Shown one piece after another: positions 20,027 through 43,580 of a stretch of DNA of 64,000 bases (position 1 is its first letter; the number at the start of each line of letters is the position of its first letter). Below the pieces are notes generated by a model. The model searched no databases. It was not told the DNA's origin and saw only the letters and a program-made list of their open reading frames with translations. The stretch is taken from the NCBI RefSeq assembly GCF_040215725.1, contig NZ_CP157968.1, positions 620,001-684,000 on the forward strand, read 5' to 3'. Source of the DNA: Rhizobium sp. ZPR4 (lineage in GTDB: Bacteria > Pseudomonadota > Alphaproteobacteria > Rhizobiales > Rhizobiaceae). Made by a program: the position numbers and the translations under genes.

Positions 20027-20088
20027 GGGTGTGCCCTCATGTCTTTGCTTCGGGATTTCGTACTCGGCTGTGGGGGGAGCCAACCACG

Positions 20089-20121
20089 CCGGCTCTCGGG
20101 CCGGAATGGGCCGAGAGCCGG
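20089..20121 (-). other. Intercistronic hairpin between iorB-like and cytochrome genes
   Basis: Perfect 11-bp stem CCGGCTCTCGG / CCGAGAGCCGG with an 11-base loop, 31 bases after the iorB-like stop. No T tract follows, so it more likely stabilises or processes the mRNA, or partly terminates it, than ends the operon. Confidence 0.5.
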
Positions 20122-20151
20122 AATTGCGCCTGGCGCAGAGGAAGCTGCGCT

Positions 20152-22416: not shown

Positions 22417-22874
22417 AGCGTTTCTCCTTCCTTGGAGGAGAGATCTTTGACCGCAGCCTTGATCGCATTGTAGGTTCCGCATCGACAGAGATTGATCATT
22501 GCCGCGGCGATCTCGTCATCGGAAGGATTGGGCGTTTGTTTGAGGAGCGCGGTCGCCGCCACGACCTGCCCCGATTGACAGTAGCCGCATTGCGGAACCT
22601 GGTGCTTGATCCAGGCGGCGACGACACGCTTGCCGATCGGGTCCGCTTCGATCGCTTCGATCGTCGTGATCTGGCGGCCCGCGACGCTGTCGAGCGGCGT
22701 CACGCATGAGCGCACCACTTCCCCATCGACGAGGACCGAGCAGGCACCGCATTGTGCCAGTCCGCAACCGTATTTCGTGCCGGTCATGCCCAGCTCGTCG
22801 CGGATGATCCAGAGGAGCGGCGTGTCTCCGTCTGAATTGACCTGATAGGACTGGCTGTTGATCTGAAGATTCAT
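22413..22874 (-). CDS. 2Fe-2S subunit of the exported molybdenum hydroxylase (IorA type)
   Basis: 153 residues with two [2Fe-2S] clusters: plant-ferredoxin type CGLAQCGAC...C at ~39-62 and the helical CGYCQSGQ...CRCG at ~100-137. Lacks its own signal, as is usual; it would be co-exported with the Tat-bearing large subunit. AGGAGG six bases before ATG 22874. First gene of the IorA-IorB-cytochrome operon; no FAD subunit is present, consistent with cytochrome c as acceptor. Confidence 0.92.
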   Translation of the reverse strand: MNLQINSQSYQVNSDGDTPLLWIIRDELGMTGTKYGCGLAQCGACSVLVDGEVVRSCVTPLDSVAGRQITTIEAIEADPIGKRVVAAWIKHQVPQCGYCQSGQVVAATALLKQTPNPSDDEIAAAMINLCRCGTYNAIKAAVKDLSSKEGETL

Positions 22875-25662: not shown

Positions 25663-26136
25663 ATGACACGAACCATCCATATCGCGCTCGACATCAACGG
25701 GCAGCGCCACGAACTCGATATCGAGCCGCGTGTGACGCTGCTTGATGCGCTGCGCGAGCATCTCTCGCTCACCGGCACCAAGAAGGGCTGCGATCAGGGC
25801 CAGTGCGGTGCCTGCACCTGCCATGTCGACGGCAAGCGTGTGCTCTCCTGTCTGACGCTGGCCGCGCAGGCCGAAGGCCGCAAGATCACGACGATCGAGG
25901 GCATTTCCAGCGAATCCGGCGATCTGCATCCGGTGCAGGCCGCGTTCATCGAGCACGATGCCTTCCAGTGCGGCTATTGCACGCCGGGCCAGATCATGTC
26001 GGCCGTCGCCTGCATCCGCGAAGGACATGCCGGTTCGGATACGGAAATCCGTGAATATATGTCCGGCAATCTCTGTCGGTGCGGGGCCTATAACAGCATC
26101 GTTGCGGCGGTGCGCCAGGCAGCGGAGGTGGCGTGA
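25663..26136 (+). CDS. paoA: 2Fe-2S subunit of a cytoplasmic aldehyde/heterocycle oxidoreductase (PaoA type)
   Basis: 157 residues with two [2Fe-2S] motifs: CDQGQCGACTC...C (~46-65) and CGYCTPGQ...CRCG (~105-144). E. coli PaoA has a long Tat leader; this one has none, so the enzyme is probably cytoplasmic. Translationally coupled (ATGA) to the FAD subunit. Symbol by similarity of the trio to PaoABC/YagTSR. Confidence 0.88.
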   Translation: MTRTIHIALDINGQRHELDIEPRVTLLDALREHLSLTGTKKGCDQGQCGACTCHVDGKRVLSCLTLAAQAEGRKITTIEGISSESGDLHPVQAAFIEHDAFQCGYCTPGQIMSAVACIREGHAGSDTEIREYMSGNLCRCGAYNSIVAAVRQAAEVA

Positions 26137-27119
26137 TGCGAAACTTCTCCTATCTGCGCGCCACATCGACAGCCGAAGCCGGTCAGGCGGCGCAACAGGC
26201 CGGCGCAATGATCCTGGCCGGCGGAACGACGCTGCTCGATCTCGCAAAATGTGGCGTGGGCGAGCCCGATACTGTCATCGATATCACCCATCTCTCCGGC
26301 ATGAGCGGCATCGCCGTTAACGCTGATGGCGCAACCATCGGCGCGCTTGCCAGGATGAGCGAGGTCGCCGACCACAAGGATATCCGCTCGGCGTTTCCGG
26401 CCGTTTCCGAATCTCTGTCTCTGGCCGCCTCCGCTCAGCTTCGCAACATGGCGACGATCGGCGGCAATCTCCTGCAGCGGACTCGCTGTTCCTATTTCCG
26501 CGATCCCGGCACCTTTCTCGCCTGCAACAAGCGAAGCCCCGGTTCCGGCTGTTCGGCAATCGGCGGCGTGACGCGCAATCACGCGGTGCTCGGGACAAGC
26601 GAGGCCTGCATCGCCTCCTATCCCGGCGATCTGGCGGTTGCCCTTGTCGCATTTGACGCTGTAGTGGAGACGGATAGCCGCAAGGTTGCCATCGACGATT
26701 TCTTCCTCGTTCCCGGCGACACGCCGAACAAGGAAACCGTCCTCAACCACGGCGAGATCATTACCGCCGTCACTATTCCTGCCTCCGCCGCTGCCCGGAA
26801 CTCCACCTATATCAAGATCCGCGATCGGCAGTCCTACGAATTCGCCGCTGCGAGCGCTGCCGTAGGTCTGGAGTTTGAAGCCGATGGCAGGACGGTCCGC
26901 GATATTCGCGTGGCAATCGGCGGGGTCGCCACGAAGCCTTGGCGGGCGCGTGATGTCGAGCAGGCGCTGATCGGCAAGACACTCACTCCGGAGGCCGTCG
27001 AAGCGGCCAGCCGGCTTGCCATGAGGGGTGCCGTCTCTCACGGCGGCAACCACTACAAGATCGAACTTGCGCCGCGTGTCATCGCCCGCGCCATTCTGAA
27101 GATGGGAGGTCTTGCATGA
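26133..27119 (+). CDS. paoB: FAD subunit of aldehyde oxidoreductase (PaoB type)
   Basis: 328 residues of the CODH/xanthine dehydrogenase FAD family: ILAGGTTLLDLAK and ATIGGNLLQRTRC. It carries the extra Cys set typical of PaoB for a [4Fe-4S] cluster (RTRCSYFRD, LACNKRSPGSGCSAIGG and SEACIASYPGD). Sits between the 2Fe-2S and molybdenum subunits with ATGA overlaps at both ends. Electrons would leave through this FAD to ferredoxin, NAD or oxygen. Confidence 0.9.
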   Translation: MMRNFSYLRATSTAEAGQAAQQAGAMILAGGTTLLDLAKCGVGEPDTVIDITHLSGMSGIAVNADGATIGALARMSEVADHKDIRSAFPAVSESLSLAASAQLRNMATIGGNLLQRTRCSYFRDPGTFLACNKRSPGSGCSAIGGVTRNHAVLGTSEACIASYPGDLAVALVAFDAVVETDSRKVAIDDFFLVPGDTPNKETVLNHGEIITAVTIPASAAARNSTYIKIRDRQSYEFAAASAAVGLEFEADGRTVRDIRVAIGGVATKPWRARDVEQALIGKTLTPEAVEAASRLAMRGAVSHGGNHYKIELAPRVIARAILKMGGLA

Positions 27120-29404
27120 CCATGATGGAACCCCGCAAACATGGCGATGCTTCCGACGGTACGGTCGGCGGTCGTCAGTCGCGCTTCGAAGGCAACATGA
27201 AGGTGACGGGGACTGCGACCTATGCGCTGGAATACCCGGTTGAAAATCTCGCCTATGCCGTTCTCGTCCAGAGCACGGTCCCGGCTGGTCGCGTCGTCAA
27301 GGTCGATGCTTCTGCCGCGCTCGCAATGCCGGGTGTGCTGCTCGTGCTGACGCCGGAGGACGATCTCGGCCTTAAACTTTCGGCTGACTGGGGCGGCAAC
27401 AAGCCGGCCGACGGTCCTTATTATCCGCTGCCGCGCGAAGTGCGCTTCAATGGGCAGTCGATTGCGGCCGTCGTCGCCGAAAGCCGCGAACTGGCGACGG
27501 AAGCCGCGAGGCTGGTGCGCGTCACCTATGAAGAGAGCAGCCACGTCGCCGACCTCAACGACCCGAATGCCGGTGAAGGCAAGCTCATGGAGCCGCTCTC
27601 TTCGAGCTGGGGTGATGCGGAGGCAGCCCTTGCCGCCTCGCCGGTGCGGATCGAGGCGGAATATTCGACGCCGCGTGAATATCACGTCGCGATGGAGCCG
27701 CACGGGCTGACAGCGAAATGGGATGGCGACCAGCTGACCATCTGGGAGCCGAGCCAGTGGTCGCATGGCATGGCGCGCATGTATTCCGAATGGTTCGACA
27801 TGCCCTATGAGAATGTCCGGATCATCTCCCCCTTCATCGGCGGCGGTTTCGGATCGAAGGGCGTGCCGCTTGCCTATGGGGCGGTCGCCGTTGCGGCTGC
27901 AAGAAAGCTCGGCCGACCGGTGAAACTCGCGGTCACCCGCCCGCAGAATTTCACGAGTTATGGCGGGCGTGCTGCGACCAGGCAGAAGATCGCGCTCGGC
28001 GCGACCGAGGATGGTATCTTGCAGGCGATCGTTCATCGCGGCGCTAGCGAAACCTCCGTCGATGCGGACTGGCCGGAGCAGACCGGGGCGGCAACGTCGA
28101 TCCTCTACAAGGTCGAGAATTTCTCCTCGCAGCATCGCGTCGTGCCGGTCAACAGCGTGACACCCGGCGCCTTGCGTGGACCGGGCAAGAACCCGAGCGC
28201 CTACGGCATCGAATGCGCTATCGAGGAACTGGCCTACAAGCTCGGCATGGACCCGCTCGAACTCAGGTTGAAGAACTATGCCGATCATGACTACCAGTCC
28301 GGAAAGCCTTGGTCGACGCGCCGGCTGCGCGAGGCGTTGACCGAAGGTGCCGAAGCTTTCGGCTGGTCGCGGCGCAGCCACGCGCCGCGCTCGATGCGCG
28401 ACGGCAAGACGCTGATCGGCTGGGGCATCGGCTGCGGCACCTTCCCCGTCATCCGCGCACCGAGCGAGGCGATGATCCGCATTCTCGGCAACGGCCGGGT
28501 CGAGGTCATCAGCGGCGCCATCGACATGGGGCAGGGGACCTATACGATCCTCGCCCAAAGTGCCGCGGAAGTCTTCGGCATTCCGGTGGATCAGGTCGAG
28601 GTTTACCTCGGCGATTCGCGCCTGCCGGGCGCGGCGATCGCCGGCGGATCGATGCTGGCCGGCTCGATCATGGGAGCCGTCCATAAGGCTGCGGTCGCTG
28701 CCCGCGACGAACTCATCGGCCTCGCGCTCAGCGATGCCAATTCGCCCTTCCGCGAGACGGGCGCAAACACGCTGAATTTCGCCGAGGGGCGCATCGCAGC
28801 ACCGCGCGGCGAGACGCCATCGCTGACGCTGGCGGAACTGATGTCTGCGTTGAAACGCGAGGAGATCGAAGTCCGGCGCAACACCCTGCCTGACGGTGCG
28901 ACCGCGCAGGAACTGCAGCAGGCCTGGACCACCATGGCTAGGGTTCAAGGGCCGACCATGGGCGATTATTCCATGCACAGCTGGTGCGCCCATTTCGCCG
29001 AAGTACGGGTCGACGAGGATTTTGGCACGGTGCGCGTCTCCCGCATGGTCTCTGCCTTCGATTGCGGCCGCCTCTACAATCCGAGACTGGTCGAAAGCCA
29101 GTGGCGGGGCGGCATCATCATGGGCATCGGCCAGGCGCTTCTCGAAGAGGGGTTGGTCGATCAGCGCAACGGGCGAACCGTCAACAACAATGTGGGCGAT
29201 TACCTCGTGCCGACGAATTCTGACATTCCGGACATCCAGGTGATCTCTGTCGGCGTCCCGGACCATCAGGCCTCGGCACTCGGCGGCAAGGGTGTCGGCG
29301 AAGTCGGCATCGTCGGCGTGGCGCCGGCGATCGCCAATGCCGTGTTCCATGCCACCGGCAAGCGCGTTCGCGATCTGCCGATCACATTGGAAAAGCTGCT
29401 CTAG
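27116..29404 (+). CDS. paoC: Molybdenum-cofactor subunit of aldehyde oxidoreductase (PaoC type)
   Basis: 762 residues. Motifs of xanthine-oxidase-family large subunits: PFIGGGFGSKG, PGALRGPGKNPSAYGIE, MGQGTYTILAQSAAE, and near the C-terminus GGKGVGEVGIVGVAPAIANAV with the catalytic Glu. Family members hydroxylate aromatic aldehydes or N-heterocycles. With paoAB forms a complete three-subunit enzyme. The MoCD-cytidine cofactor chaperone often found beside such genes (PaoD/XdhC) is not present here. Confidence 0.92.
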   Translation: MTMMEPRKHGDASDGTVGGRQSRFEGNMKVTGTATYALEYPVENLAYAVLVQSTVPAGRVVKVDASAALAMPGVLLVLTPEDDLGLKLSADWGGNKPADGPYYPLPREVRFNGQSIAAVVAESRELATEAARLVRVTYEESSHVADLNDPNAGEGKLMEPLSSSWGDAEAALAASPVRIEAEYSTPREYHVAMEPHGLTAKWDGDQLTIWEPSQWSHGMARMYSEWFDMPYENVRIISPFIGGGFGSKGVPLAYGAVAVAAARKLGRPVKLAVTRPQNFTSYGGRAATRQKIALGATEDGILQAIVHRGASETSVDADWPEQTGAATSILYKVENFSSQHRVVPVNSVTPGALRGPGKNPSAYGIECAIEELAYKLGMDPLELRLKNYADHDYQSGKPWSTRRLREALTEGAEAFGWSRRSHAPRSMRDGKTLIGWGIGCGTFPVIRAPSEAMIRILGNGRVEVISGAIDMGQGTYTILAQSAAEVFGIPVDQVEVYLGDSRLPGAAIAGGSMLAGSIMGAVHKAAVAARDELIGLALSDANSPFRETGANTLNFAEGRIAAPRGETPSLTLAELMSALKREEIEVRRNTLPDGATAQELQQAWTTMARVQGPTMGDYSMHSWCAHFAEVRVDEDFGTVRVSRMVSAFDCGRLYNPRLVESQWRGGIIMGIGQALLEEGLVDQRNGRTVNNNVGDYLVPTNSDIPDIQVISVGVPDHQASALGGKGVGEVGIVGVAPAIANAVFHATGKRVRDLPITLEKLL

Positions 29405-29449: not shown

Positions 29450-29622
29450 TGCCTCCGCGCTGTCTCAACTCTGGCCCGTGAGTGGCTGACGTCGTGTTTC
29501 CCCTCGCGCCAACGCGTTGCCATTTCGGCAATGAGAGAGCCGAAAAACGGCGCTTCTTCAGAACGCTTCCTTTTGTCATAGTTCATCGAAAGCGCCCCCG
29601 AGAGCGCTGCGAGGCGAGCGTC

Positions 29623-29964
29623 ATGGCTTACGTAATCACCGAGCCCTGCATTGATACGAAGGATGGCGCCTGCACCGTCGCCTGTCCGGTCGATTGCATC
29701 TACGAGGGCGGGCGGATGTTCTATATTCACCCGGACGAGTGCATCAATTGCGGCCTCTGCCTTTCCGTCTGCCCCGTCGATGCCATTTTGTGGGATGAGG
29801 AGATGCCGACGGAGCGGTTTTTCCTGCGCGACGTCAACCGCGATTTCTTTGCTGATGGCGTGACCGGCTGGGGCGCACCCGGCGGCTGGGACAAGAGCCG
29901 GACGACCAGTCTTGACCATCCATTCGTGGCGGCTTACGGCACTGTGCCTGAAAATCGATTGTGA
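29623..29964 (+). CDS. fdxA: 7Fe ferredoxin (FdxA-like)
   Basis: 113 residues. A [3Fe-4S]/[4Fe-4S] pair is built from CIDTKDGACTVACPVDC and CINCGLCLSVCP, followed by the long C-terminal tail of FdxA-type ferredoxins. A cytoplasmic one- to two-electron carrier. Lies in the same direction 218 bases after paoC, and could serve as its electron acceptor or be independent; a hairpin lies between them. Confidence 0.9.
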   Translation: MAYVITEPCIDTKDGACTVACPVDCIYEGGRMFYIHPDECINCGLCLSVCPVDAILWDEEMPTERFFLRDVNRDFFADGVTGWGAPGGWDKSRTTSLDHPFVAAYGTVPENRL

Positions 29965-30030
29965 TGGGAAGAATAACCTGATCGGGCATCTCTGCGGCTG
30001 TTCCCACAGCGGTCGCCGCTTTTCACGATA

Positions 30031-31425
30031 TCAGGAGATCCCGGGCCAGCTGGCATAATAAGCGCGCGTCGCCTCTGATAATGCGTTGGCGAGCGGTCGT
30101 TGCTTTTCGAGTCTCGGCAGATCGGCCTTTGCCTGTACCAGGAGTTCGGATAGAGCGGCGTCGAAGTCGATGCCGGTCAAGTCACCCTCGCGCATCACCT
30201 CCCGGCCAGCGACGACGAGCCCTCTCGCATATCGGGCGCTCATGCGGGTCAACAGGACCTCTGCCTCGTCCATGTCATCGAACAGCGAGTCGGCGGTCAG
30301 GCCCTGATAATCGACGATGGTGTAGTCCTCCGCGTTCCTCGCGTTGATGATCTGCCTTCCAACCCGGATTGCTGCATCGAAGACATCCTTGGCCGTCAAC
30401 TGCCGCGTCAGGCTTCGTCCGCCGTGCAGGAGATAGAGGAGGCGCATCTCCCGCCAGAGATCCTGATCGTCGTCCAGCCCGGTGCCGTCGAGGCCAATAG
30501 CGAAGGCGGGGCCACCGTGTTCGATCGTGGATGCGATCGGCGCGATGCCTGAGCGAAGGCGCAGATTGGCGGTGGGATTGCTGACGATCTGCACGCCGCG
30601 CTCGGCAAGCAATTCCAACTCATCAGGACGCAATTGAACGCCATGAGCGACCGCGAGCCGAGGCGATAGGAAGCCTATTCTGTCGAGATAATTGACGACG
30701 CCCTCGGGAAAACGCCGGTCGAGCCAAAGGCGTTGGCGCGGGCTTTCGAGCAGGTGCATGTGAATGCGCCGATCATGATGCGCCGAAGCCTCGGCAATGG
30801 CCTCCAATAGCGCATTGGAGCACCATTGCGGCCCGATCGGCCCATACTGCACGTCGATCAGCGGGCTGGTGTTGGCGGCGGCGACCGCCTCGACGGCGGT
30901 TAACTGTGTCGAGATCGGCGCGTAGGTTGGAATGGTCGGCTCCAACGCCTGCCAGTCACTTGCCGGAAGAAAGGGTTTGAGCCGTTGCGGCCCGCCATCA
31001 TAGGCCCAGGCATCGTGGTCGAGCAGCGGGCAGGAGAGCCCAAGCCGAATACCGATATCGCTGGCGGCCCGCATGACAGCGCTTGCCTCGTCGACGAGAC
31101 GATCGACATTGAGCGAGTTGTGGCAATGCATGGTGGCGCCGACGCCGGTTCGGGCAAGCCGGCCGAAGGCGACGAGTGCCTCGAGATAGGGATCCGTGCG
31201 CGGCCGCAGCCTCAGGCCCGGTATCCACACTTCCAGAGCGTCGTCGACCGCGCCGAAATCGAGGGTGCGGATGCCATAGCCATGGTCATGGGCATTGACG
31301 GGCGCGGGGAGAATGAGATCGCCGGGCTCAGGACGAAGGGATTGGAAGACAGACGGCAGCTCCGCCGCTTCTTTAATCCTTTGGGCAGGCGCATGACCCG
31401 GATTGAGCAGCAATCGCATAGCCAT
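30031..31425 (-). CDS. Metal-dependent amidohydrolase / deaminase-like enzyme
   Basis: 464 residues with the complete amidohydrolase metal set: HxH in PVNAHDHGYG, His in HMHLLESPRQ, His in VAHGVQLRPDE and the final Asp in IGLDGTGLDDD, plus GATMHCHNS. The pattern LLAERGVQIVSNPTANLRLRSG resembles cytosine/guanine deaminases and atrazine-type chlorohydrolases (ATZ/TRZ group). Expected to hydrolyse a ring amine, amide or imine in the cytoplasm. Last gene of an eight-gene operon; GGAGG five bases before the ATG, 12 bases after the LysR stop. Confidence 0.85.
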   Translation of the reverse strand: MAMRLLLNPGHAPAQRIKEAAELPSVFQSLRPEPGDLILPAPVNAHDHGYGIRTLDFGAVDDALEVWIPGLRLRPRTDPYLEALVAFGRLARTGVGATMHCHNSLNVDRLVDEASAVMRAASDIGIRLGLSCPLLDHDAWAYDGGPQRLKPFLPASDWQALEPTIPTYAPISTQLTAVEAVAAANTSPLIDVQYGPIGPQWCSNALLEAIAEASAHHDRRIHMHLLESPRQRLWLDRRFPEGVVNYLDRIGFLSPRLAVAHGVQLRPDELELLAERGVQIVSNPTANLRLRSGIAPIASTIEHGGPAFAIGLDGTGLDDDQDLWREMRLLYLLHGGRSLTRQLTAKDVFDAAIRVGRQIINARNAEDYTIVDYQGLTADSLFDDMDEAEVLLTRMSARYARGLVVAGREVMREGDLTGIDFDAALSELLVQAKADLPRLEKQRPLANALSEATRAYYASWPGIS

Positions 31426-31437
31426 GATCTCCTCCCT

Positions 31438-32361
31438 TTATCGCGAGACCAGCGTGTTGATCTTCTCGGCAAATTTCGACAGTTCCTCGCCCATCGATTG
31501 GGCGACAACTTCGGTCGCATGGGTTAGCTGGCGACGTCGCGAGACGACGATGCCGACTTCGAGGTCCTGGAGCTTCGATCCCGCGATTGAAAGCGCGACG
31601 GCATCGCCGGCCTCCAGCTCGCGCAGCAGCCCGAGCGGCGTGAAGAAGGCGACACCTTCGCCTGATAGTATCATCGGTTTCAGCATCATCTGATTGTTCG
31701 TCGCGACAAGCGTGCGGCCGACGCGGTTGAGCGCGCCAAGTTCGACTGCGATCATCGAACTCATGACCTCGTTGTCGAGCTGCAGCAGCATATTGAACTG
31801 GGCGCATTCCTGCAGCGTTACCGATCTTTGCCGCGCCAGCGGATGGCTCTTGGCGACGATCGCCATCAGCGGCATGCGCACGCCGTGGATCAGCTTCATG
31901 TCGTGCGGCCGGGCAAGATCGAAGGTGACGCCGATATCGACATCGCCCTCGGCGAGAAAGCGGAAAATGTTGTTGTAATTATCGGTGCGGATGCGGAAAT
32001 CCACCGCCGGATGCTTCTTGTGAAAGCCGGAGACGAATTCTGGCAGGAACTGGATCGCAAGGCTGTCCAGGGCGGCGATGTGGACGCGGCCGGTATTCTT
32101 GCCGTGGAGATCGCCGAGATTGGATTTCATGATCTCATATTCGTGCAGCGTGTCCTTGGCGTGGCGCAGCACGATCTCGCCAGCCGACGTCAGCCGCAGC
32201 CCATCGGAAAAGCGCTCGAACAGCGGCGTTCCAAGCTCGTCTTCCAGCTTCTTGATCTGTCGGCTGACGGCGGAGGTCGCCACATGCAGCTCGTCGGATG
32301 CCTTGCGGATCGATCCGGAGCGTGCAACCTCGGCGAAATACTTCAGAATGCTGGCATGCAT
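31438..32361 (-). CDS. LysR-family transcriptional regulator
   Basis: 307 residues. N-terminal winged HTH: HASILKYFAEVARSGSIRKA, ELHVATSAVSRQIKKLEDELG and PLFERFSDGLRLTSAGEIVL; then a substrate-binding-like effector domain. Unusually it is transcribed inside the catabolic operon, between the hydratase and amidohydrolase genes, rather than divergently. It is the natural candidate to bind the palindrome at 38479-38495 ahead of the operon. Confidence 0.93.
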   Translation of the reverse strand: MHASILKYFAEVARSGSIRKASDELHVATSAVSRQIKKLEDELGTPLFERFSDGLRLTSAGEIVLRHAKDTLHEYEIMKSNLGDLHGKNTGRVHIAALDSLAIQFLPEFVSGFHKKHPAVDFRIRTDNYNNIFRFLAEGDVDIGVTFDLARPHDMKLIHGVRMPLMAIVAKSHPLARQRSVTLQECAQFNMLLQLDNEVMSSMIAVELGALNRVGRTLVATNNQMMLKPMILSGEGVAFFTPLGLLRELEAGDAVALSIAGSKLQDLEVGIVVSRRRQLTHATEVVAQSMGEELSKFAEKINTLVSR

Positions 32362-32396
32362 GAAAAGCCCTCGGCAATCTCGAAGCTATAGCATGC

Positions 32397-33173
32397 CTAT
32401 CTGCCGCGCCAAACGGGCGCCCGCTTCTCGCGGAAAGCCGCGACACCCTCCATGGCATCCTCGCTTTTCAAGGCCTTGATGAGCGCGGGTGTCCGCAACG
32501 CCTGCGCCTCTGCCGGGCTTAGATGTGCCGTGCGATTGACCGTCTGCTTAATCGCCCGCAGCGAAAGCGGAGCACAGGCAACGATATCGGCGACCCAGCG
32601 CTCGACGGCAGCGTCCAGCTCGGCAGCCGAAACGACTTCGTTGACGACGCCGAAACTCGCCATTTCCTGCGCGCTGAACTGCCGCCCCGTCAGCATCACC
32701 GCCATGGCACGGTTGAACGGAATCTTGCGCTGCAAGAGCACCATGCCGCCATCGAGCGGCATCCGGCCGACGCGGGCTTCGGGCAGACCGAAGCGCGCCG
32801 TCTCCACGGCAATGACGATATCGCAGCCAAGCACCATCTCGAAGCCGCCGCCCAGCGCATAGCCGTTGACGCGCGCAATCACCGGCACGTCGAGCGAGCG
32901 GCGGAAGGCGAGACCGCCAAAGCCGTTTTCCCGCCCGACCGTCCAGTAGTCGACACCGGAACTGCCGCTACCGCCTTTGAGGTCGGCGCCTGCGCAAAAA
33001 GCCTTTTCGCCGGAGCCGGTCAGGACGACGCAGCTGATGTCGTCGCGCGTCTCGATCTCCGTCCAGATCGACTCCAGCCTCGCCTCGGTCTCGGCATCGA
33101 CCGCGTTCATCCGGTCGGGGCGGTCGAGCGTGACGCGGGCAACGCGGTCTTCTACGGTGAAGGTAACGCTCAT
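32397..33173 (-). CDS. Enoyl-CoA hydratase/isomerase family protein
   Basis: 258 residues of the crotonase fold. Oxyanion-hole segment AFCAGADLKGG, and both catalytic Glu positions of true hydratases are filled: YALGGGFEMVLGCDI and FGLPEARVGRMP. Expected to hydrate or otherwise process an enoyl-CoA formed after the CoA-transferase and FAD oxidoreductase steps. ATGA overlap with the CoA-transferase gene. Confidence 0.9.
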   Translation of the reverse strand: MSVTFTVEDRVARVTLDRPDRMNAVDAETEARLESIWTEIETRDDISCVVLTGSGEKAFCAGADLKGGSGSSGVDYWTVGRENGFGGLAFRRSLDVPVIARVNGYALGGGFEMVLGCDIVIAVETARFGLPEARVGRMPLDGGMVLLQRKIPFNRAMAVMLTGRQFSAQEMASFGVVNEVVSAAELDAAVERWVADIVACAPLSLRAIKQTVNRTAHLSPAEAQALRTPALIKALKSEDAMEGVAAFREKRAPVWRGR

Positions 33174-34327
33174 GCGGCGTCTCCCTGCACCTCGGAAAGC
33201 GAGGCCAGAATTTCCTCATTGTGCTGACCGAGCTGCGGCGGCGCGATCCGCACGGTGACGTGGGCGGCCGACATGTCGATCGGCGAGCCGATCAGCCGGA
33301 TCGGGCCGGCGGCGGTCTCACCTGCCTCGAGGATCATTTTGTTGATGATCGTCTGCTCGTCCTTCAGCGCCTCGGGCAGCGAACGGACCGGCGCGCAGAG
33401 AATGTCGACGCCTTCCAGCCGTGCGATCCAATGCGCGGTGCTGTTTTTGGCGAAATTCTCGCGGAAGATCGCCTGCAACTCCGGCCGCCGCGCCATTTGC
33501 GAGTCGAAATCCTTGTATTGCGGATATTGCGAGAGGTCTTCGATCTCAAGCGCTTCGCAGATATCGCGCAAGGGGTTCGGTTTGAAAGCGCCGACCATGA
33601 CGATCGCGCTGTCCGTCGTCTCGAAGACGCCCGTCAGTGGGAAGGCGCCCCAGTTCAGGTCCTTCTGGCGCATCAGATGCGTCGTGCCTTCCTGCATCTG
33701 CATGGCGATCATGGAGTTGTAGAGGCTGACGGCGACCTGCTGTCCCTCTCCCGTCTTGTCGCGCTGCAGAAGCGCAAGCAGGATACCCTGTACGAGGTGC
33801 ATGCCGGCAGAATAATCGGCAAGCGGCGTGGCATAGATCGAGGTCGGATGGCTATTGTCGGACTTGCGGCGCATGACGCCGGAGACGGCCTGCGCCAACA
33901 CGTCCTGGCCGCCCTTATGCTGGTAGGGGCCGGTCAGCCCGAAGCCGGTGCCGACGGCATAGATCAGACGCGGATTGATCTTTTTCAGATCTTCATAGCC
34001 AAAGCCCATGCGCTCCATCACGCCAGGCCGGAAGTTGTTGACGACGACGTCAGCCGTCTCAAGCAGCGCCTGGACGGTCTTGCGGGCGCTGGCTTCCTTC
34101 AGATCGAGCGCCAGGCTCTTCTTGTTGCGGTTCAAGGAGCAGAAGACCGGGTTATTGAGCCCATCCGGATCGGAACCGAGCGACCAGCGCGAGAGATCGC
34201 CGATCTTCACCTTTTCGATCTTGATGACTTCGGCGCCGTAGTCGGCCAGAACCTGGGTGCAGGAGGGGCCGAGCATGACCTGCGTGAAATCGATCACGCG
34301 GATTCCGTCGAGTGGCAAAGTCGTCAT
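33170..34327 (-). CDS. Class III CoA-transferase (CaiB/Frc family)
   Basis: 385 residues. N-terminal LDGIRVIDFTQVMLGPSCTQVLADYGAEVIKIE is the family signature; the catalytic Asp is expected in ATPLADYSAGMH near residue 170. These enzymes move CoA from a donor acyl-CoA to a carboxylic acid, activating it for beta-oxidation-like steps. Coupled by ATGA to the FAD oxidoreductase upstream and the hydratase downstream. Confidence 0.92.
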   Translation of the reverse strand: MTTLPLDGIRVIDFTQVMLGPSCTQVLADYGAEVIKIEKVKIGDLSRWSLGSDPDGLNNPVFCSLNRNKKSLALDLKEASARKTVQALLETADVVVNNFRPGVMERMGFGYEDLKKINPRLIYAVGTGFGLTGPYQHKGGQDVLAQAVSGVMRRKSDNSHPTSIYATPLADYSAGMHLVQGILLALLQRDKTGEGQQVAVSLYNSMIAMQMQEGTTHLMRQKDLNWGAFPLTGVFETTDSAIVMVGAFKPNPLRDICEALEIEDLSQYPQYKDFDSQMARRPELQAIFRENFAKNSTAHWIARLEGVDILCAPVRSLPEALKDEQTIINKMILEAGETAAGPIRLIGSPIDMSAAHVTVRIAPPQLGQHNEEILASLSEVQGDAA

Positions 34328-35682
34328 TCTGCAGCCTCCAAATATGTCGCGTTTTCCGAGGGGATGTCGCCGGGATCGGCGCCCTGAGCCCGCATCTGTT
34401 TCTGAATCGCCCTGACATCGGCCTTGCGAACGGTCGTCCCGGCATTGAGGGCGACGGTTGCGGCGACACCAGCCGCCTCACCCATCGCCATGCAGGGCGG
34501 GATCTCGCGGCTGGATTTCTGTGCCTGCGGCGTGGAAGAATAATGCCGTCCGGCAACGATCAGCTGGTCGACCTCTCTGGGCAGCATGGCGCGGTAGGGC
34601 GTGTAGTAGTCGCGGCCACGGCAGACCGTGTCGGCGAAATGCCGGCGGGTCATGACGTCGTCCTTCGTCACGACATAGTCTCCCTGCAGCAGCCGCGTTT
34701 GGCGCACGCCAGTCTGCGGCGCGAAATCGACGACATAGGCATTCTCGAAGCCGGGCATCTTTTCCCGTGCGAAATCGAGCAGCTTGGCAATGCGCGAGCG
34801 ACCTTCCATCTCCGCCTTGGTCAGATCCTCGACCTTCAGGCCGCTTAAGGTCGGCATATGCGGGCAGTTCAGCCAGACGACGCCGGGCAGCGGGGTCTTC
34901 AGCCACCAGAAGGACCAGCAACCGCCGATCAGCCGCTTGGCTTCGTGATCGAGCGCCTTGAAGGCTTCCGGTTCCTGCTGTTCAAAACGTTCCGCCGCTT
35001 CCGTATCGACGCCGCCCCAGCGCGACACCGTCGTCAGAATGAAGTTGGATTCGACATGGGAAGCGCCTGCACTCGCGGCGACATCGAGATCGCCCGTCGT
35101 ATCAATGACGACATCACCGAGGATTGCCTGCATCCCGTCCTTGGTCTGGCAGATGACGCCCTTGATCGTGCCGCCCTCGACGATCGCCGAGGAAAACCAG
35201 CTGTGGGTTCTGAGCTTGATCTTCGCTTCGCCGATCATGTCATAGGCGGCGCGCTTGAAGGCGTCGGGATCGAAGGCGGCCGAAAAGCAGATCGGGTGCG
35301 GCATTGCCTGTGTGTGGAAATCGAAGAGGCCCCATCGCGCCCAACGCTGCCAGGCCTCCGGCGTGTCGCGGAATTCGATCAGGCGGTCACGGTCGGTCGG
35401 TGTCACGCAGAGATCCCACCGCTTCATGCGCTCGATCATCTCCATGCAGATGCCGCGCACCGTGATTTCGAGCTCGTTGATCATATCGTCGAGCACCAGC
35501 ACCATGCCGCCGGCAGCAAGCCCGCCGACATAGGGATAGCGTTCGAGAAGGGTGACGCTTGCGCCATTGCGCGCTGCCGATACGGCTGCTGCAATTCCGG
35601 CAGGCCCCCCGCCGACGACAACCACATCGGAGCGATCGACGACACGGATATCCCGTGCAGGCTGGTGAATAACCTGTTCCAT
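34324..35682 (-). CDS. FAD-dependent oxidoreductase
   Basis: 452 residues. N-terminal dinucleotide fold VVVVGGGPAGIAAAVSAARNGASVTLLER, then GGLAAGGMVLVLDDM; second FAD contact ILGDVVIDTTGDLDVAASAGA; C-terminal PPCMAMGEAAGVAATVALNAG. This is the FAD_oxidored (PF12831-like) group, many with unknown substrates. No signal peptide. Lies between the importer genes and the CoA-transferase, so it probably oxidises the imported substrate. Confidence 0.87.
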   Translation of the reverse strand: MEQVIHQPARDIRVVDRSDVVVVGGGPAGIAAAVSAARNGASVTLLERYPYVGGLAAGGMVLVLDDMINELEITVRGICMEMIERMKRWDLCVTPTDRDRLIEFRDTPEAWQRWARWGLFDFHTQAMPHPICFSAAFDPDAFKRAAYDMIGEAKIKLRTHSWFSSAIVEGGTIKGVICQTKDGMQAILGDVVIDTTGDLDVAASAGASHVESNFILTTVSRWGGVDTEAAERFEQQEPEAFKALDHEAKRLIGGCWSFWWLKTPLPGVVWLNCPHMPTLSGLKVEDLTKAEMEGRSRIAKLLDFAREKMPGFENAYVVDFAPQTGVRQTRLLQGDYVVTKDDVMTRRHFADTVCRGRDYYTPYRAMLPREVDQLIVAGRHYSSTPQAQKSSREIPPCMAMGEAAGVAATVALNAGTTVRKADVRAIQKQMRAQGADPGDIPSENATYLEAAE

Positions 35683-35709
35683 TGGTGTTCCCTCGATGTT
35701 TTCTAAGTT

Positions 35710-36543
35710 TTAGTGCTGTCCGGCCGGCTTCCAGCGGATCATCTTGGCTTCTGCGACCGAGACGATGAAGAAGAGGATCACGGCAAGCAGGGCGGCGATG
35801 ACCACCGTCGCGTAAAGCAGCGGCGAGCGGAAATTATAGGTCGCCTCGATGATGAGAGCGCCGAGCCCGAAGCTGGAGCCGATCCACTCCGCCACTATCG
35901 CGCCCATGACGCTGCTGGTGGCAGCGATCTTCAAGGCGGCGAAGAGGAATGGCAGCGAGCTCGGCAGGCGAACCTTCCAGAGGATCTCGGAGTTGCTGGC
36001 CGAGAGCACCCGCATCAGGTCGAGCATGGCGGGGCTTGCCGAGCGAAGTCCCTGGACCATGTTGACCAGCGTCGGGAAGAAACAGATCAGGCCGGCGATG
36101 ATGATCTTCGGGGCAACGCCGTTGCCGAAGATCAGCACCAGGATCGGCGCAAGCGCGATGATCGGGATCGCCTTGACGAAGACGGCGATCGGATAGAAGG
36201 CCTTCTCCGCGGTGGCGCTGTGGACGAACCAGATTGCCAGCATGATGGCGATAAGATTGCCGAAGACAAAGCCGAGAACGGCCTCGAGTACCGTCGGCAG
36301 GAGGTTTCTAGTGAGCGTCGCGGCATTGTCGCGAAAGGCATAGAGGACGTCGAGCGGGCTTGGCGCCATGAAGGTCGGGATCTTGAAGATCCAGATGACC
36401 GCCTGCCACAGCACGATGCAGCCGAGTGCCGCAAGGATTGCCGGCATGTGCGAGGAGAGGACGCCGACGGTTGCGTCGAGGATGGCGACTTTGCGCGGCG
36501 CCTTGGCGATGCGGCCGATGTCGGAGTGGATGGCATTGCTCAT
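35710..36543 (-). CDS. ABC transporter permease (SsuC/TauC type)
   Basis: 277 residues, about six membrane helices, with the BPD_transp_1 coupling segment in FFPTLVNMVQGLRSASPAMLDLMRVLSAS and LPSSLPFLFAALKIAATSSVMGAIVAEW. This subfamily imports sulfonates, taurine, nitrate, thiamine precursors or aromatic acids. ATG 36543 overlaps the ATPase stop (ATGA) and has GGAGG seven bases ahead; an ATG two codons upstream is too close to it. Confidence 0.92.
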   Translation of the reverse strand: MSNAIHSDIGRIAKAPRKVAILDATVGVLSSHMPAILAALGCIVLWQAVIWIFKIPTFMAPSPLDVLYAFRDNAATLTRNLLPTVLEAVLGFVFGNLIAIMLAIWFVHSATAEKAFYPIAVFVKAIPIIALAPILVLIFGNGVAPKIIIAGLICFFPTLVNMVQGLRSASPAMLDLMRVLSASNSEILWKVRLPSSLPFLFAALKIAATSSVMGAIVAEWIGSSFGLGALIIEATYNFRSPLLYATVVIAALLAVILFFIVSVAEAKMIRWKPAGQH

Positions 36544-37367
36544 ATGCATTCCTCCAGCAGCGCACGGAGATGCGCGGTCACCTTGATGAAGTCGACGGTG
36601 TCGCGCATCGCAAGCGAGCGCGGATAGGGGAGGTCGACTTTCATGTACTCCTTCACCCTCCCGGGATGGGCCTGCAGCATCAGCACATGCTGGCCGAGGA
36701 AGACCGCCTCCGGGATGGAATGGGTGACGAAGACGATGGTTGTGCCGGTTTCGCGCCAGATGCGTAAGAGTTCTTCATTGAGCTTGTCGCGGGTGATTTC
36801 GTCGAGCGCGCCGAAGGGCTCATCCATCAAAAGAATGCGCGGCTTGGTCACAAGGGCGCGGGCGATGGCGACACGCTGGCGCATGCCACCCGACAGTTCG
36901 TGCGGCAGGGCCTTTTCACGCCCCTTCAGGCCAACGAGCGCCAGCAGCTCCATGGGATCGGCATAGGCGCTCTTGTCATGCTTGCCGACTTCCAGCGGCA
37001 GGCGGACATTGTCGATGACACTTCGCCAGGGCAGAAGCGTCGCTTCCTGGAAGACGAAGGCGAAGTCACGGCCCTGACGCGCTTCGCGCGGCGGCCGGCC
37101 GAATACCGAAACCGAACCATCGCTGATGTCAACGAGATCGGCGATACAGCGGAGCAGCGTCGACTTGCCGCAGCCGGACGGCCCGAGCATCGTCACGAAT
37201 GACCCCTCGGGAATGTCGACCGAGACATTGGAGAGTGCGGTGAACTCATTGCCCTTGTCGCCGAAGCGGATGTCGAGATCCCGAATGGAAACGGCAAGTC
37301 TTGCCGTTTCAGCTGCTGGTAGCGGCTGTGGCTGCTTGATGGTGGCGGCGCTCATCATGGCATTCAC
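36540..37367 (-). CDS. ABC transporter ATP-binding protein (SsuB/TauB type)
   Basis: 275 residues. Walker A LGPSGCGKSTLLR, Q loop VFQEATLLPW, signature LSGGMRQRVAIARAL, Walker B ILLMDEPFGALDE, switch His in VTHSIPEA. Energises the permease at 35710. Start is a GTG at 37367 overlapping the binding-protein stop (GTGA) or ATG 37358. Confidence 0.94.
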   Translation of the reverse strand: MNAMMSAATIKQPQPLPAAETARLAVSIRDLDIRFGDKGNEFTALSNVSVDIPEGSFVTMLGPSGCGKSTLLRCIADLVDISDGSVSVFGRPPREARQGRDFAFVFQEATLLPWRSVIDNVRLPLEVGKHDKSAYADPMELLALVGLKGREKALPHELSGGMRQRVAIARALVTKPRILLMDEPFGALDEITRDKLNEELLRIWRETGTTIVFVTHSIPEAVFLGQHVLMLQAHPGRVKEYMKVDLPYPRSLAMRDTVDFIKVTAHLRALLEECI

Positions 37368-38398
37368 CCGATCTGCTTGCGGATTTCGGTCGTTGCGTCG
37401 AGGATCGCCATGGTAGCGACGTCATCGACGGTCGGCGTGGTGCCTGTGAATTGCTTGAGGTCGGCATAGGCCTTGATCTGGGCGGCCCAATTGTCCTTGT
37501 TCATCGCACCCCAGCCGGTCTGCTTGGTGCTGTCGCCGAAGGAGAAATCGATGACGGGATGGACGGCCTCGAGTTCGCTCGCCTTGTCGAGATTGGGATA
37601 GGCGTCGACCAGCATGTCGACGGCTTCTTCCGGATGGTCGCGCACATAGCCCCAGCCCTTGGCGGCGGCTGTGGTGAAGCGCACCAGCACGTCGGAATGT
37701 TTGTCGAGCTGCTCGTCGGTCGTGTAGTAGACATTGGCATAGAGCTGCAGGCCCGCATCCCAGAGCATCATGTCGACGCGCTCGTCGCCGAGCACCTTCA
37801 GTGCATTGGTGTTCGTCACCCACCCGGTAACCGCATCAGCCTGACCGGTGATCAACTGGTTCATGTCGGAACCCATGTTGACCATCTTCACTTTGTCTTC
37901 CGGAATGCCGTTTTGCGCGAGAAGGGCGCGCAGAAGGATGAAGGCGGTCGGCTGCGTCGCGATCGTCTTGCCGATCATGTCCTTCGGCTCGCGGATCGGC
38001 GATTTCTTCAACGAGAAATATGTAAATGGATGCTTACGGTATCCGGCGAGAAACGCCTTGACCGGCATGCCGGCGGAACGCGCGAGCATGACCGACGGGC
38101 TCGAGGAAATCTGGCCGATAGCGGATTGGCCTGCTGCCACACCGGCAACGCCATCGACATTCGGGCCGCCGGGGACGATGGTGAGATTGATGCCCTGCTC
38201 GGTGAAGAAGCCCTTTTTCTGAGCTGCGACCTCGCCAAGCAGGCCGTTCGAGGCAAGCCAGCCGAGCTGCATGCGAACCTCGGCAACATCGGCCGCCTTG
38301 CCGGCGCGAATGCCGACGAAAGTCTGCGTTGCGGCAAGACCTCCGACCAAGGCAGCGTTGGAAAGAAAGCGGCGGCGATTCATCATGAATTGTGACAT
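37364..38398 (-). CDS. ABC transporter substrate-binding protein (NMT1/THI5-like)
   Basis: 344 residues with a Tat-type signal (MNRRRFLSNAALVGGLAATQTF). The body matches the SsuA/NMT1 family: VRMQLGWLASNGLLGEVAAQKKGFFTEQGINLTIVPGG, YRKHPFTYFSLKKSPI, QADAVTGWVTNTNAL. First gene of the eight-gene catabolic operon; it should capture the substrate in the periplasm. The ligand cannot be predicted by eye. Confidence 0.92.
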   Translation of the reverse strand: MSQFMMNRRRFLSNAALVGGLAATQTFVGIRAGKAADVAEVRMQLGWLASNGLLGEVAAQKKGFFTEQGINLTIVPGGPNVDGVAGVAAGQSAIGQISSSPSVMLARSAGMPVKAFLAGYRKHPFTYFSLKKSPIREPKDMIGKTIATQPTAFILLRALLAQNGIPEDKVKMVNMGSDMNQLITGQADAVTGWVTNTNALKVLGDERVDMMLWDAGLQLYANVYYTTDEQLDKHSDVLVRFTTAAAKGWGYVRDHPEEAVDMLVDAYPNLDKASELEAVHPVIDFSFGDSTKQTGWGAMNKDNWAAQIKAYADLKQFTGTTPTVDDVATMAILDATTEIRKQIG

Positions 38399-41696: not shown

Positions 41697-43580
41697 TTAC
41701 TTGATGCTGTTCAGATCGACACCCTTGGTTTCGCGAACGAAGATAAGACCGATGACGAGGGTCATCGCAGCGATCGCGATCGGGTACCAGAGGCCATAAT
41801 AGATATCGCCCTTGGCGGCGCTCATGGCGAAGACCGTTGCCGGCAGCAGACCGCCGAACCAGCCGTTGCCGATGTGATAAGGCAGCGACATGCCGGTATA
41901 GCGGATGCGGGTCGGGAACATCTCCACCAGGATTGCGGCGATCGGGCCGTAAACCATGGTCACATAGATCACGAGGATCGTCAGAATGAGGATGGTCAGC
42001 GGCCAATTGATGGCCGCGGGATCGGCAACCATCTTGAAGGCCCCGCCATTGGCGATGGTGTAGACCGGCATGTCGGTGGCGCCGCCAGCCTGATCCGCCG
42101 TCAGAAGCTTCGCCTTGACGAGGTCGGCGACCGGCGTGACCGTCTTGTCGCCCGCCCGCACGGTTGCCGCGTTGAGCGCGAGTTCGGGATTGGCGGCGAT
42201 GAAGGCATCCAGCTTGGCGTCCGGCACCTTGGCGGGGTCGCGTGCCAGCGGGAAGCCGGCCTTTTGCAGGGCGAGGTTCATGTCATGCGTGAATACCGCG
42301 CTCTTGGCCGCCGCGCCGGCACCCGCCGCCGTGGCATCATAGGAGGTTATGGTCGCGTCGCCCACCTTGACGGTTGCCGGCTGCCCGGCCGGGCCTTCGG
42401 CGATGGTATAGGGCACGGACGACTTCGACAGGAAAGACGTGGCGATGTCGCACGAATTGTTGAACTTGGCGGTGCCGACCGGATTGAACTGGAAGGTACA
42501 ATCGTTGGGCGCTGCCGTCACCGTGGCCCGGATGGTTTGCTCCGCTTGGGCGAGCGCCGGATTTGCGGCGTGGGTCAGCGCCTTGAACAGCGGGAAGTAG
42601 GTCAGGATTGCAAGCGCAAGACCCGCCATGATGATCGGCTTGCGACCGATCTTGTCGGACAGCCAGCCGAAGACTACGAAGAAGCCGCTGCCGATCAGAA
42701 GTGCGATCGCGATCATGATGTTGACCGACTGGCCATCGACCTTCAGCACGCTTTGCAGGAAGAACAGCGAATAGAACTGGCCCGCATACCAGACGACCGC
42801 CTGACCGGCGGTAAGGCCAAGCAGGGCGATCAAGGCGATCTTCGCATTCTTCCACTGACCGAAGGCTTCGGAGAGCGGAGCCTTGGAGCCCTTCCCTTCT
42901 TCCTTCATCTTCTTGAACGCTGGCGATTCACTGAGTGACAGTCGTATCCAGACGGAGATGGCAAGCAGAACGCAGGAGAGAAGGAAGGGGATGCGCCAGC
43001 CCCAGGCGGCAAATGCATCCTTGCCGACGGCGTTCTGTACGACGAGAACGACGATCAGCGACAGGAACAGGCCGAGCGTCGCAGTCGTCTGTATCCAGGA
43101 CGTATAATAACCGCGCTTGTTGTCCGGCGCGTGCTCGGCGACATAAGTCGCAGCACCACCGTATTCGCCGCCGAGCGCCAGACCCTGCAATAGGCGAAGG
43201 ATGATGAGGATGACCGGTGCGATGATGCCCCAGCTCGCCGAGCCGGGAAGGACGCCGACCAGAAAGGTCGAAAGGCCCATGATCAGGATCGTGACGAGGA
43301 AGGTATATTTGCGTCCCACGAGGTCGCCGATCCGTCCGAAGACGAGGGCGCCGAACGGCCGCACAAGGAAGCCCGCGGCGAAGGCCAGCAAAGCGAAAAT
43401 ATTGCGGGTTGCTTCCGGATAGTCGCTGAAGAAAGCTGTACCGATGAAGGCAACCAGCGCTCCATAAAGATAGAAGTCATACCATTCGAACACGGTTCCG
43501 AGGGAGGATGCGAAGATGACCTTCTTCTCCTCCCTGGTCATGCCTCGGCCGTTCGTCTCGGCCACGGACGTGGTTGCCAT
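41697..43580 (-). CDS. MFS metabolite:H+ symporter with large periplasmic insert
   Basis: 627 residues; the usual MHS (ProP/ShiA/KgtP) length is 420-450. The MHS hallmarks are present: FEWYDFYLYG at the start, FGRIGDLVGRKYTF, GGEYGGAATYVAEHAP, LSDKIGRKPI, and EMFPTRIRYTGMSLPYHIGNGWFGG. Between helices 9 and 10, after FPLFKALTHAANP and before INWPLTILILT, lies an insert of about 170 residues that should face the periplasm. It contains two Cys (NDCTF, NNSCDIA) able to form a disulfide. GGGAGG precedes the start. Probable dicarboxylate, betaine or aromatic-acid importer. Confidence 0.88.
   Translation of the reverse strand: MATTSVAETNGRGMTREEKKVIFASSLGTVFEWYDFYLYGALVAFIGTAFFSDYPEATRNIFALLAFAAGFLVRPFGALVFGRIGDLVGRKYTFLVTILIMGLSTFLVGVLPGSASWGIIAPVILIILRLLQGLALGGEYGGAATYVAEHAPDNKRGYYTSWIQTTATLGLFLSLIVVLVVQNAVGKDAFAAWGWRIPFLLSCVLLAISVWIRLSLSESPAFKKMKEEGKGSKAPLSEAFGQWKNAKIALIALLGLTAGQAVVWYAGQFYSLFFLQSVLKVDGQSVNIMIAIALLIGSGFFVVFGWLSDKIGRKPIIMAGLALAILTYFPLFKALTHAANPALAQAEQTIRATVTAAPNDCTFQFNPVGTAKFNNSCDIATSFLSKSSVPYTIAEGPAGQPATVKVGDATITSYDATAAGAGAAAKSAVFTHDMNLALQKAGFPLARDPAKVPDAKLDAFIAANPELALNAATVRAGDKTVTPVADLVKAKLLTADQAGGATDMPVYTIANGGAFKMVADPAAINWPLTILILTILVIYVTMVYGPIAAILVEMFPTRIRYTGMSLPYHIGNGWFGGLLPATVFAMSAAKGDIYYGLWYPIAIAAMTLVIGLIFVRETKGVDLNSIK

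Follow-up and report, generated by a model that had tools for sequence, protein, structure and literature searches.

A conserved operon of Rhizobium sp. ZPR4 that apparently encodes an uncharacterised coenzyme A-dependent catabolic module

The stretch of Rhizobium sp. ZPR4 DNA analysed here (contig NZ_CP157968.1, positions 620,001 to 684,000; called the window below, 64,000 nucleotides in full, with positions counted from its first base) contains an operon of eight genes, all on the reverse strand, between 30031 and 38398. Beginning with its first gene, the operon is composed of genes for an NMT1-type solute-binding protein (37364–38398; Pfam NMT1), the ATPase (36540–37367; ABC_tran) and permease (35710–36549; BPD_transp_1) of an ATP-binding cassette (ABC) transporter, a flavin adenine dinucleotide (FAD)-dependent flavoenzyme (34324–35682; FAD_oxidored, PF12831), a class III (CaiB/Frc-like) coenzyme A (CoA)-transferase (33170–34327; CoA_transf_3, PF02515), a crotonase-family hydratase (32397–33173; ECH_1), a LysR-type regulator (31438–32361; LysR) and a TRZ/ATZ-type amidohydrolase, a probable deaminase (30031–31425; Amidohydro_1 and structure comparison). 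The flavoenzyme, CoA-transferase and hydratase form the core of the module, to which the amidohydrolase is peripheral. An earlier note on this DNA, made from the sequence alone, had described eight leftward genes with overlaps or gaps of 35 bases or less, and the coordinates of the open reading frames bear this out, giving overlaps of 4, 10, 4 and 4 bases and gaps of 27, 35 and 12 bases; the families it named agree with Pfam for all eight proteins. None of the eight reached an NCBIfam cut-off among the matches listed, and therefore none carries a curated specific name.

A further gene, overlooked in the earlier note, lies on the forward strand (29623–29964), convergent with the operon. Its product is predicted by profile and cysteine pattern to be a 7Fe ferredoxin of the FdxA type: the stretch 29614–29964 scores 130.3 bits against NCBIfam FdxA_Actino (NF045480, cut-off 125) and 80.5 bits, below the cut-off of 135, against NF045490. 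Ferredoxins of the 7Fe FdxA type have an eight-Cys pattern, of which seven cysteines are present in 97 of 97 aligned counterparts and one in 95 of 97. We placed the start of the gene at codon position 29623; the longest frame begins at 29482.

A scan of genome contigs with the flavoenzyme returned 414 relatives, and the best 80 of these 414 were taken as one set of loci. A second set of 26 divergent loci comprises ten plasmid loci, 14 non-self matches from a class-wide search of 385 genomes, and the loci of genomes G437 and G035; organisms named among them include Chelatococcus, Paracoccus, Roseibium, Caballeronia, Paraburkholderia, Rhodococcus, Arthrobacter and Streptomyces. Across the resulting 106 loci, flavoenzyme identity to that of the window goes down to 58%. 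A CoA-transferase gene lies within 6.5 kb of the flavoenzyme gene in every locus (80/80 and 26/26) and a crotonase-type hydratase gene in 103 (78/80 and 25/26), the exceptions being L017 and L071, whose contigs stop at that point, and one locus where a MaoC-family gene is present in its place. The permease is found within the same distance in 80/80 best and 20/26 divergent loci (a match within 8.5 kb in L098 is part of another transporter), and the binding protein in 79/80 and 21/26. Within 8.5 kb, 97 of the 106 loci (75/80 and 22/26) have a counterpart of the ferredoxin gene. It is on the operon's strand in 5 of the 75 best loci that have it and in all 22 such divergent loci (for example L084, L087, L088, L094, L095 and L097), and in distant lineages it sits inside the operon; judged by this arrangement, the ferredoxin gene belongs to the module. 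The neighbourhood search that the earlier note had proposed for the flavoenzyme, CoA-transferase and amidohydrolase genes thus found the first two always together, with the amidohydrolase in 63/80 and 10/26 loci. Its proposal of a single operon for import and CoA-dependent catabolism is supported as well, and the core genes occur together far beyond Rhizobiales.

As a spatial control, we compared matches within 6.5 kb of the flavoenzyme gene with those in the remainder of the same 106 loci (740 kb). Near versus remaining matches numbered 106 versus 2 for the CoA-transferase, 103 versus 0 for the crotonase, 90 versus 7 for the ferredoxin, 74 versus 0 for the amidohydrolase, 4 versus 0 for a deaminase described below, 49 versus 9 for DapA-family genes and 23 versus 0 for aldehyde dehydrogenase genes; short-chain dehydrogenase/reductase (SDR) genes showed no enrichment (10 versus 8). 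The operon is genuine and far from a chance assembly. It is accessory both within the genus and within the phylum: the flavoenzyme has a match at 1e-100 in 9 of 36 same-genus genomes (one divergent, one partial) and at 1e-60 in 4 of 398 genomes drawn evenly over the phylum, a count that includes the window's own and two distant ones. Plasmid records with a flavoenzyme match number 73. R. johnstonii 3841 and R. tropici are examples of laboratory rhizobia with the locus.

The core genes are strongly constrained and the amidohydrolase gene more loosely. Ratios of nonsynonymous to synonymous substitution (dN/dS) were 0.00–0.12 for the flavoenzyme, CoA-transferase, crotonase, binding protein, ATPase and permease (11 related loci, where gap-free alignment was possible) and 0.11–0.34 for the amidohydrolase (10 related loci). 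Pairwise distances correlate with those of the flavoenzyme at 0.94 for the CoA-transferase, 0.92 for the crotonase, 0.90 for the amidohydrolase (73 loci), 0.84 for the ferredoxin and 0.69 for the DapA-family proteins (mixed subfamilies), all values being inflated by shared descent. Two further places (L100, the same as L036, and L103, the same as L140) and the distant flavoenzyme homologues at 32–37% identity (L091–L093, L099 and L137–L139) were kept outside the 106. We claim the linkage for the closer flavoenzyme subfamily only, because the surroundings of these distant homologues differ: L099 has no crotonase annotated nearby and its sole CoA-transferase gene is on the opposite strand, some 4 kb away, and L137 and L138 have, by eye, an IlvD-like dehydratase gene nearby.

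The catalytic motifs that the earlier note had called intact are so, and the residues are also conserved in aligned homologues of the CoA-transferase, crotonase and amidohydrolase. The CoA-transferase scores 357.9 bits against PF02515 (cut-off 23.3), and Asp142, which we take to be its catalytic residue, is conserved in 106 of 106 aligned matches. The crotonase scores 196.5 bits against its Pfam family profile (cut-off 27) and retains Glu112 and Glu132, presumably the two catalytic glutamates, in 103 of 103; profile and Glu pair place it in the crotonase-fold enoyl-CoA hydratase family, with its activity predicted. In the G035 locus (L103/L140), which is from the same genus, a MaoC-family gene (PF01575) with weaker matches to RipB/Ich and the mesaconyl-CoA hydratase domain lies just before the flavoenzyme gene, and no crotonase was found at the locus. 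Because MaoC, a different fold with the same reaction type, stands in here for the crotonase, this replacement argues for hydration rather than isomerisation. The G035 locus further carries two CoA-transferases, a PF04199 cyclase, a CocE/NonD hydrolase, an SDR and a DapA-family gene. The flavoenzyme belongs to a large family: of 7999 sequences scored, 4079 are relatives at E<=1e-30, many of these being less closely related than the subfamily considered here. The 120 listed relatives have names such as FAD-dependent oxidoreductase or hypothetical protein, with one 'putative thiazole biosynthetic enzyme' and one 'invasion protein', and no experimentally tested function was seen among these names.

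The amidohydrolase, by its modelled fold and residue set, is assigned to the TRZ/ATZ-type hydrolases of the amidohydrolase superfamily, and the structures nearest to the model are nucleoside, nucleobase and triazine hydrolases. The metal and catalytic set of this type is HxH, H, E, H and D; His46, His48, His224, His261 and Asp313 are conserved in 73 of 73 aligned matches and Glu227 in 72 of 73. No NCBIfam equivalog cut-off was reached by the protein, and we therefore give it no substrate name. The gene lies within 6.5 kb of the flavoenzyme in 73 of the 106 loci, never beyond, one of the 63 among the best 80 (L061) being a distant homologue on the far side of the operon. Four loci that lack it carry a gene of the cytidine-deaminase fold, and other loci have neither. 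This substitution, together with the TRZ/ATZ-type model, suggests that the amidohydrolase is probably a deaminase. Since its presence is patchy and it evolves faster than the other genes, we take it to act in a peripheral step; of the earlier proposal that it opens or deaminates the substrate, the deamination is favoured and the final ring opening is not.

The binding protein has an N-terminal RRRF motif that appears, by eye, twin-arginine-like. Its best sequence match among solved structures is the N-formyl-4-amino-5-aminomethyl-2-methylpyrimidine-binding protein 3ix1 (61 bits), and a taurine-binding protein scores 33 bits. The aminohydrolase type, together with this weak match to an aminopyrimidine-binding protein, hints at an amino-heterocycle as substrate. 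Hydroxymethylpyrimidine was considered, given the 3ix1 match and the likeness of the amidohydrolase to aminopyrimidine deaminases, but with no more than 61 bits behind it we neither adopt nor reject it; dipicolinate, hydroxyproline, creatinine, pterin and pyrrole-2-carboxylate were assessed by reasoning alone. The same genome encodes a further NMT1-family binding protein with a strong match (G000:C5:102929-103561, 166 bits), where a nearby ATPase is about 44% like the Paracoccus one. The LysR gene is on the strand opposite to the flavoenzyme in 11 of the 26 divergent loci. In L009–L027 it has two main alleles, with about 93–100% or 68–69% identity to that of the window, scattered over strains whose core is about 90–100% identical; its dN/dS rises to 0.21 where the second allele occurs, and the allele pattern suggests local exchange of the regulator.

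Two additional gene families accompany the operon in relatives. DapA-family genes lie within 8.5 kb in 54 of the 106 loci (46/80 and 8/26) and aldehyde dehydrogenase genes in 23 (15/80 and 8/26), counts that may each include a few stray genes. The top families for these dehydrogenases are alpha-ketoglutaric semialdehyde dehydrogenase (KGSADH) and 2,5-dioxovalerate dehydrogenase. The relatives' dehydrogenase is 79% identical to a copy elsewhere in the ZPR4 genome that adjoins an L-arabinonate dehydratase gene (over its cut-off), a context that fits KGSADH and suggests an exit via 2-oxoglutarate semialdehyde, an end point we consider reasonable but not secure. The DapA-family protein of Rhodococcus resembles L-2-keto-3-deoxyarabonate dehydratase (82 bits), behind the function-unassigned structure 3dz1, and the best structure for that of R. 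johnstonii is 3b4u, also function-unassigned (149 bits). The DapA-family Lys and Tyr are conserved in 45 of 54 aligned matches, the other nine possibly reflecting a second subfamily, misalignment or stray matches, and were not used as support. In genomes G801 and G804 there is an additional KGSADH-like stretch whose match contains one TGA.

The operon very probably encodes an uncharacterised catabolic route for a small, probably nitrogen-bearing, organic acid. We propose that the ABC importer takes up this acid and that the amidohydrolase releases ammonia from a C=N carbon, as in an amidine or amino-heterocycle. The class III CoA-transferase would load CoA onto the carboxylate, most likely from the CoA ester of the product, which would keep CoA in a cycle; the flavoenzyme, whose candidate redox partner is the convergent 7Fe ferredoxin, would carry out a two-electron redox step on this CoA ester, and a C=C bond would be hydrated by the crotonase. 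A C5-type 2-oxo acid may then be converted to 2-oxoglutarate semialdehyde by a DapA-family enzyme, encoded beside the operon in relatives and absent beside the window's, and the semialdehyde oxidised to 2-oxoglutarate. Taken as a whole, this scheme of a CoA-cycled module with a flavin/ferredoxin step and an exit to 2-oxoglutarate is tentative, with a little less than an even chance of being right. The outline of the earlier interpretation is retained in it, with the amidohydrolase recast as a peripheral deaminase.

Several observations weigh against this scheme. The loci share kinship, and their counts are therefore not independent events. The AlphaFold2 model of the flavoenzyme is poor (predicted local distance difference test score of 60), and fold matches from it say little. 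With regard to the exit, DapA-family and aldehyde dehydrogenase genes are not beside the operon in the ZPR4 window, the density of DapA-family matches near the flavoenzyme is only about threefold that elsewhere in the same loci (37 versus 12 per Mb), and those in the ZPR4 genome are at most 36% identical. The relatives' dehydrogenases remain below the NCBIfam cut-off (496–549 of 770), and when 23 genomes chosen from the 80, none of which has the dehydrogenase near the operon, were searched at a strict cut-off of 1e-180, 16 had a match and 7 did not. The amidohydrolase was not found in 17 of the 80 best loci (L017, L066 and L071 being short contigs) or in 16 of the 26 divergent loci; it never co-occurs with the deaminase in the 106 loci (73 and 4, respectively), yet this is weak evidence with so few deaminases (hypergeometric probability about 0.12, calculated by hand for the 26-locus set).

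The gaps in amidohydrolase distribution, its higher dN/dS and the nucleoside, nucleobase and triazine hydrolases nearest to its model would all be expected if two units were combined at the locus, namely a core of importer, CoA-transferase, flavoenzyme, hydratase and ferredoxin acting on a nitrogen-free carboxylic acid, and a passenger aminohydrolase used to salvage a compound resembling a nucleobase. We consider this unlikely, as the amidohydrolase is never found beyond 6.5 kb from the flavoenzyme, a second deaminase fold takes its place in four loci, and its distances follow those of the flavoenzyme, albeit with the confounding effect of relatedness. The direction of the redox step bears on a different alternative, in which the flavoenzyme dehydrogenates a CoA ester or hydroxy acid, the ferredoxin passes electrons to a reductase and the resulting double bond is hydrated by the crotonase, with no reductive step. 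Acyl-CoA breakdown usually proceeds through a CoA-transferase, a dehydrogenase and a hydratase in that order, and actinobacterial relatives have an SDR dehydrogenase gene adjoining the DapA-family gene; SDR genes are, however, unenriched near the flavoenzyme overall, acyl-CoA dehydrogenases usually use electron-transfer flavoprotein, and a low-potential 7Fe ferredoxin would better suit an electron donor. This beta-oxidation-like order strikes us as possible, if rather improbable, and we favour reduction, if only slightly, because 7Fe ferredoxins have low potential.

It is also conceivable, though we think it very unlikely, that the pathway has been described under another name. A title cited in PMC13390433 reports a homarine catabolic pathway as conserved in environmental bacteria, and most subscription-journal papers lie beyond the literature covered. 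PMC13390433 also states that homarine breakdown involves Mgd, a name not present in the annotated neighbour stretches, in which no search aimed at Mgd was made. The earlier note knew of no described pathway with this gene set, and among the open-access papers listed for the gene set, homarine, thiamine-pyrimidine catabolism and pyrrole and furan acids no matching pathway was seen either.

Comparison with known systems places the module among variants of CoA-dependent routes. The enterobacterial carnitine system, the nearest working analogue known to us, consists of the CoA-transferase CaiB, the crotonobetainyl-CoA hydratase CaiD, the flavoprotein FixC and the ferredoxin FixX. The ZPR4 module likewise combines a class III CoA-transferase, a crotonase, a flavoprotein and a ferredoxin-like protein, and the same cycling of CoA between substrate and product would work in it. 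In contrast, its flavoenzyme is of the PF12831 family, it has ABC import and a predicted deaminase, and membership in the carnitine system was rejected on the scores of its CoA-transferase (88 bits against CaiB NF002914, cut-off 413) and crotonase (184.6 bits against CaiD NF002936, cut-off 500), both of which miss the cut-offs. L-arabinose and hydroxyproline routes end in 2-oxoglutarate semialdehyde via a DapA-family dehydratase or deaminase plus KGSADH, and in some relatives the operon is accompanied by genes for a DapA-family protein and a KGSADH-like aldehyde dehydrogenase; unlike these routes, the operon would place CoA-transferase, hydratase, flavoenzyme and ferredoxin before these two enzymes. 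No pentonate dehydratase was seen among the annotated neighbours of relatives, where no search aimed at such enzymes was made. The 2-furoate (Hmf) pathway converts a heterocyclic acid to 2-oxoglutarate over CoA esters. Compared by description, its overall logic of taking a heteroaromatic acid as CoA ester to 2-oxoglutarate is alike, whereas Hmf relies on a CoA ligase and a molybdenum hydroxylase and the operon on a CoA-transferase and a flavin/ferredoxin pair. A more specific version of the proposed scheme is a widespread aerobic, CoA-activated and ferredoxin-driven dearomatisation of an aminated N-heteroaromatic carboxylic acid, in which the flavoenzyme would reduce the CoA ester and the crotonase hydrate it on the way to 2-oxoglutarate in Alpha- and Betaproteobacteria and Actinomycetota. 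To our knowledge, such a route would be unlike the oxygenase or molybdenum-hydroxylase routes for these rings; we regard it as doubtful.

The earlier note had guessed at a cyclic nitrogen compound from two nearby molybdenum hydroxylases, an argument for which we found no support. The nearer enzyme, encoded by three forward-strand genes just upstream of the ferredoxin gene (25663–29404) and not counted in the core, is PaoABC-like, and PaoABC is an aldehyde oxidoreductase: its large subunit is nearest to PaoC (551 of 1180 bits), its small subunit to PaoA (216 of 322) and its middle subunit to the 4-hydroxybenzoyl-CoA reductase beta subunit (151 of 405). Within the flanks examined, it accompanies the operon in 7 of 80 loci, each of them from a close relative. 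The farther enzyme reaches no NCBIfam cut-off, and the nearest families of the two enzymes include 4-hydroxybenzoyl-CoA reductase beta or alpha, below cut-off. Among 22 R. tropici-type loci (L009–L027, L033, L056 and L086), seven have the PaoABC-like genes only, 13 the DapA-family gene only, one neither, and one is truncated, with PaoABC-like absence judged within the same flanks at >=50% identity. Recent haplotypes could explain this swap at 29964–30031; the 66 bases between the ferredoxin and amidohydrolase genes, compared with the DapA-family region of L010, yielded nothing apart from the matches of the ferredoxin and amidohydrolase themselves and some short chance similarities. Elsewhere in the window, 18677–22482 encodes a molybdenum-binding large subunit that reaches no NCBIfam cut-off and has a weak match to a twin-arginine translocation signal, adjoining a cytochrome c protein, and the product looks like a periplasmic oxidoreductase; 41697–43580 encodes a 627-residue protein resembling major facilitator superfamily transporters in which, by eye, a long additional segment separates the two transmembrane halves.

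The ZPR4 operon thus represents a widely shared and apparently uncharacterised CoA-dependent catabolic module. Conservation of three coupled enzymes and a ferredoxin across two phyla, and on large plasmids too, suggests that the substrate is common in the environment and that its breakdown pathway seems not to have been assigned. Naming the substrate would allow a function to be assigned to a large family whose members mostly go by the name FAD-dependent oxidoreductase, and would show what benefit an aerobe draws from combining a CoA ester with a low-potential ferredoxin.

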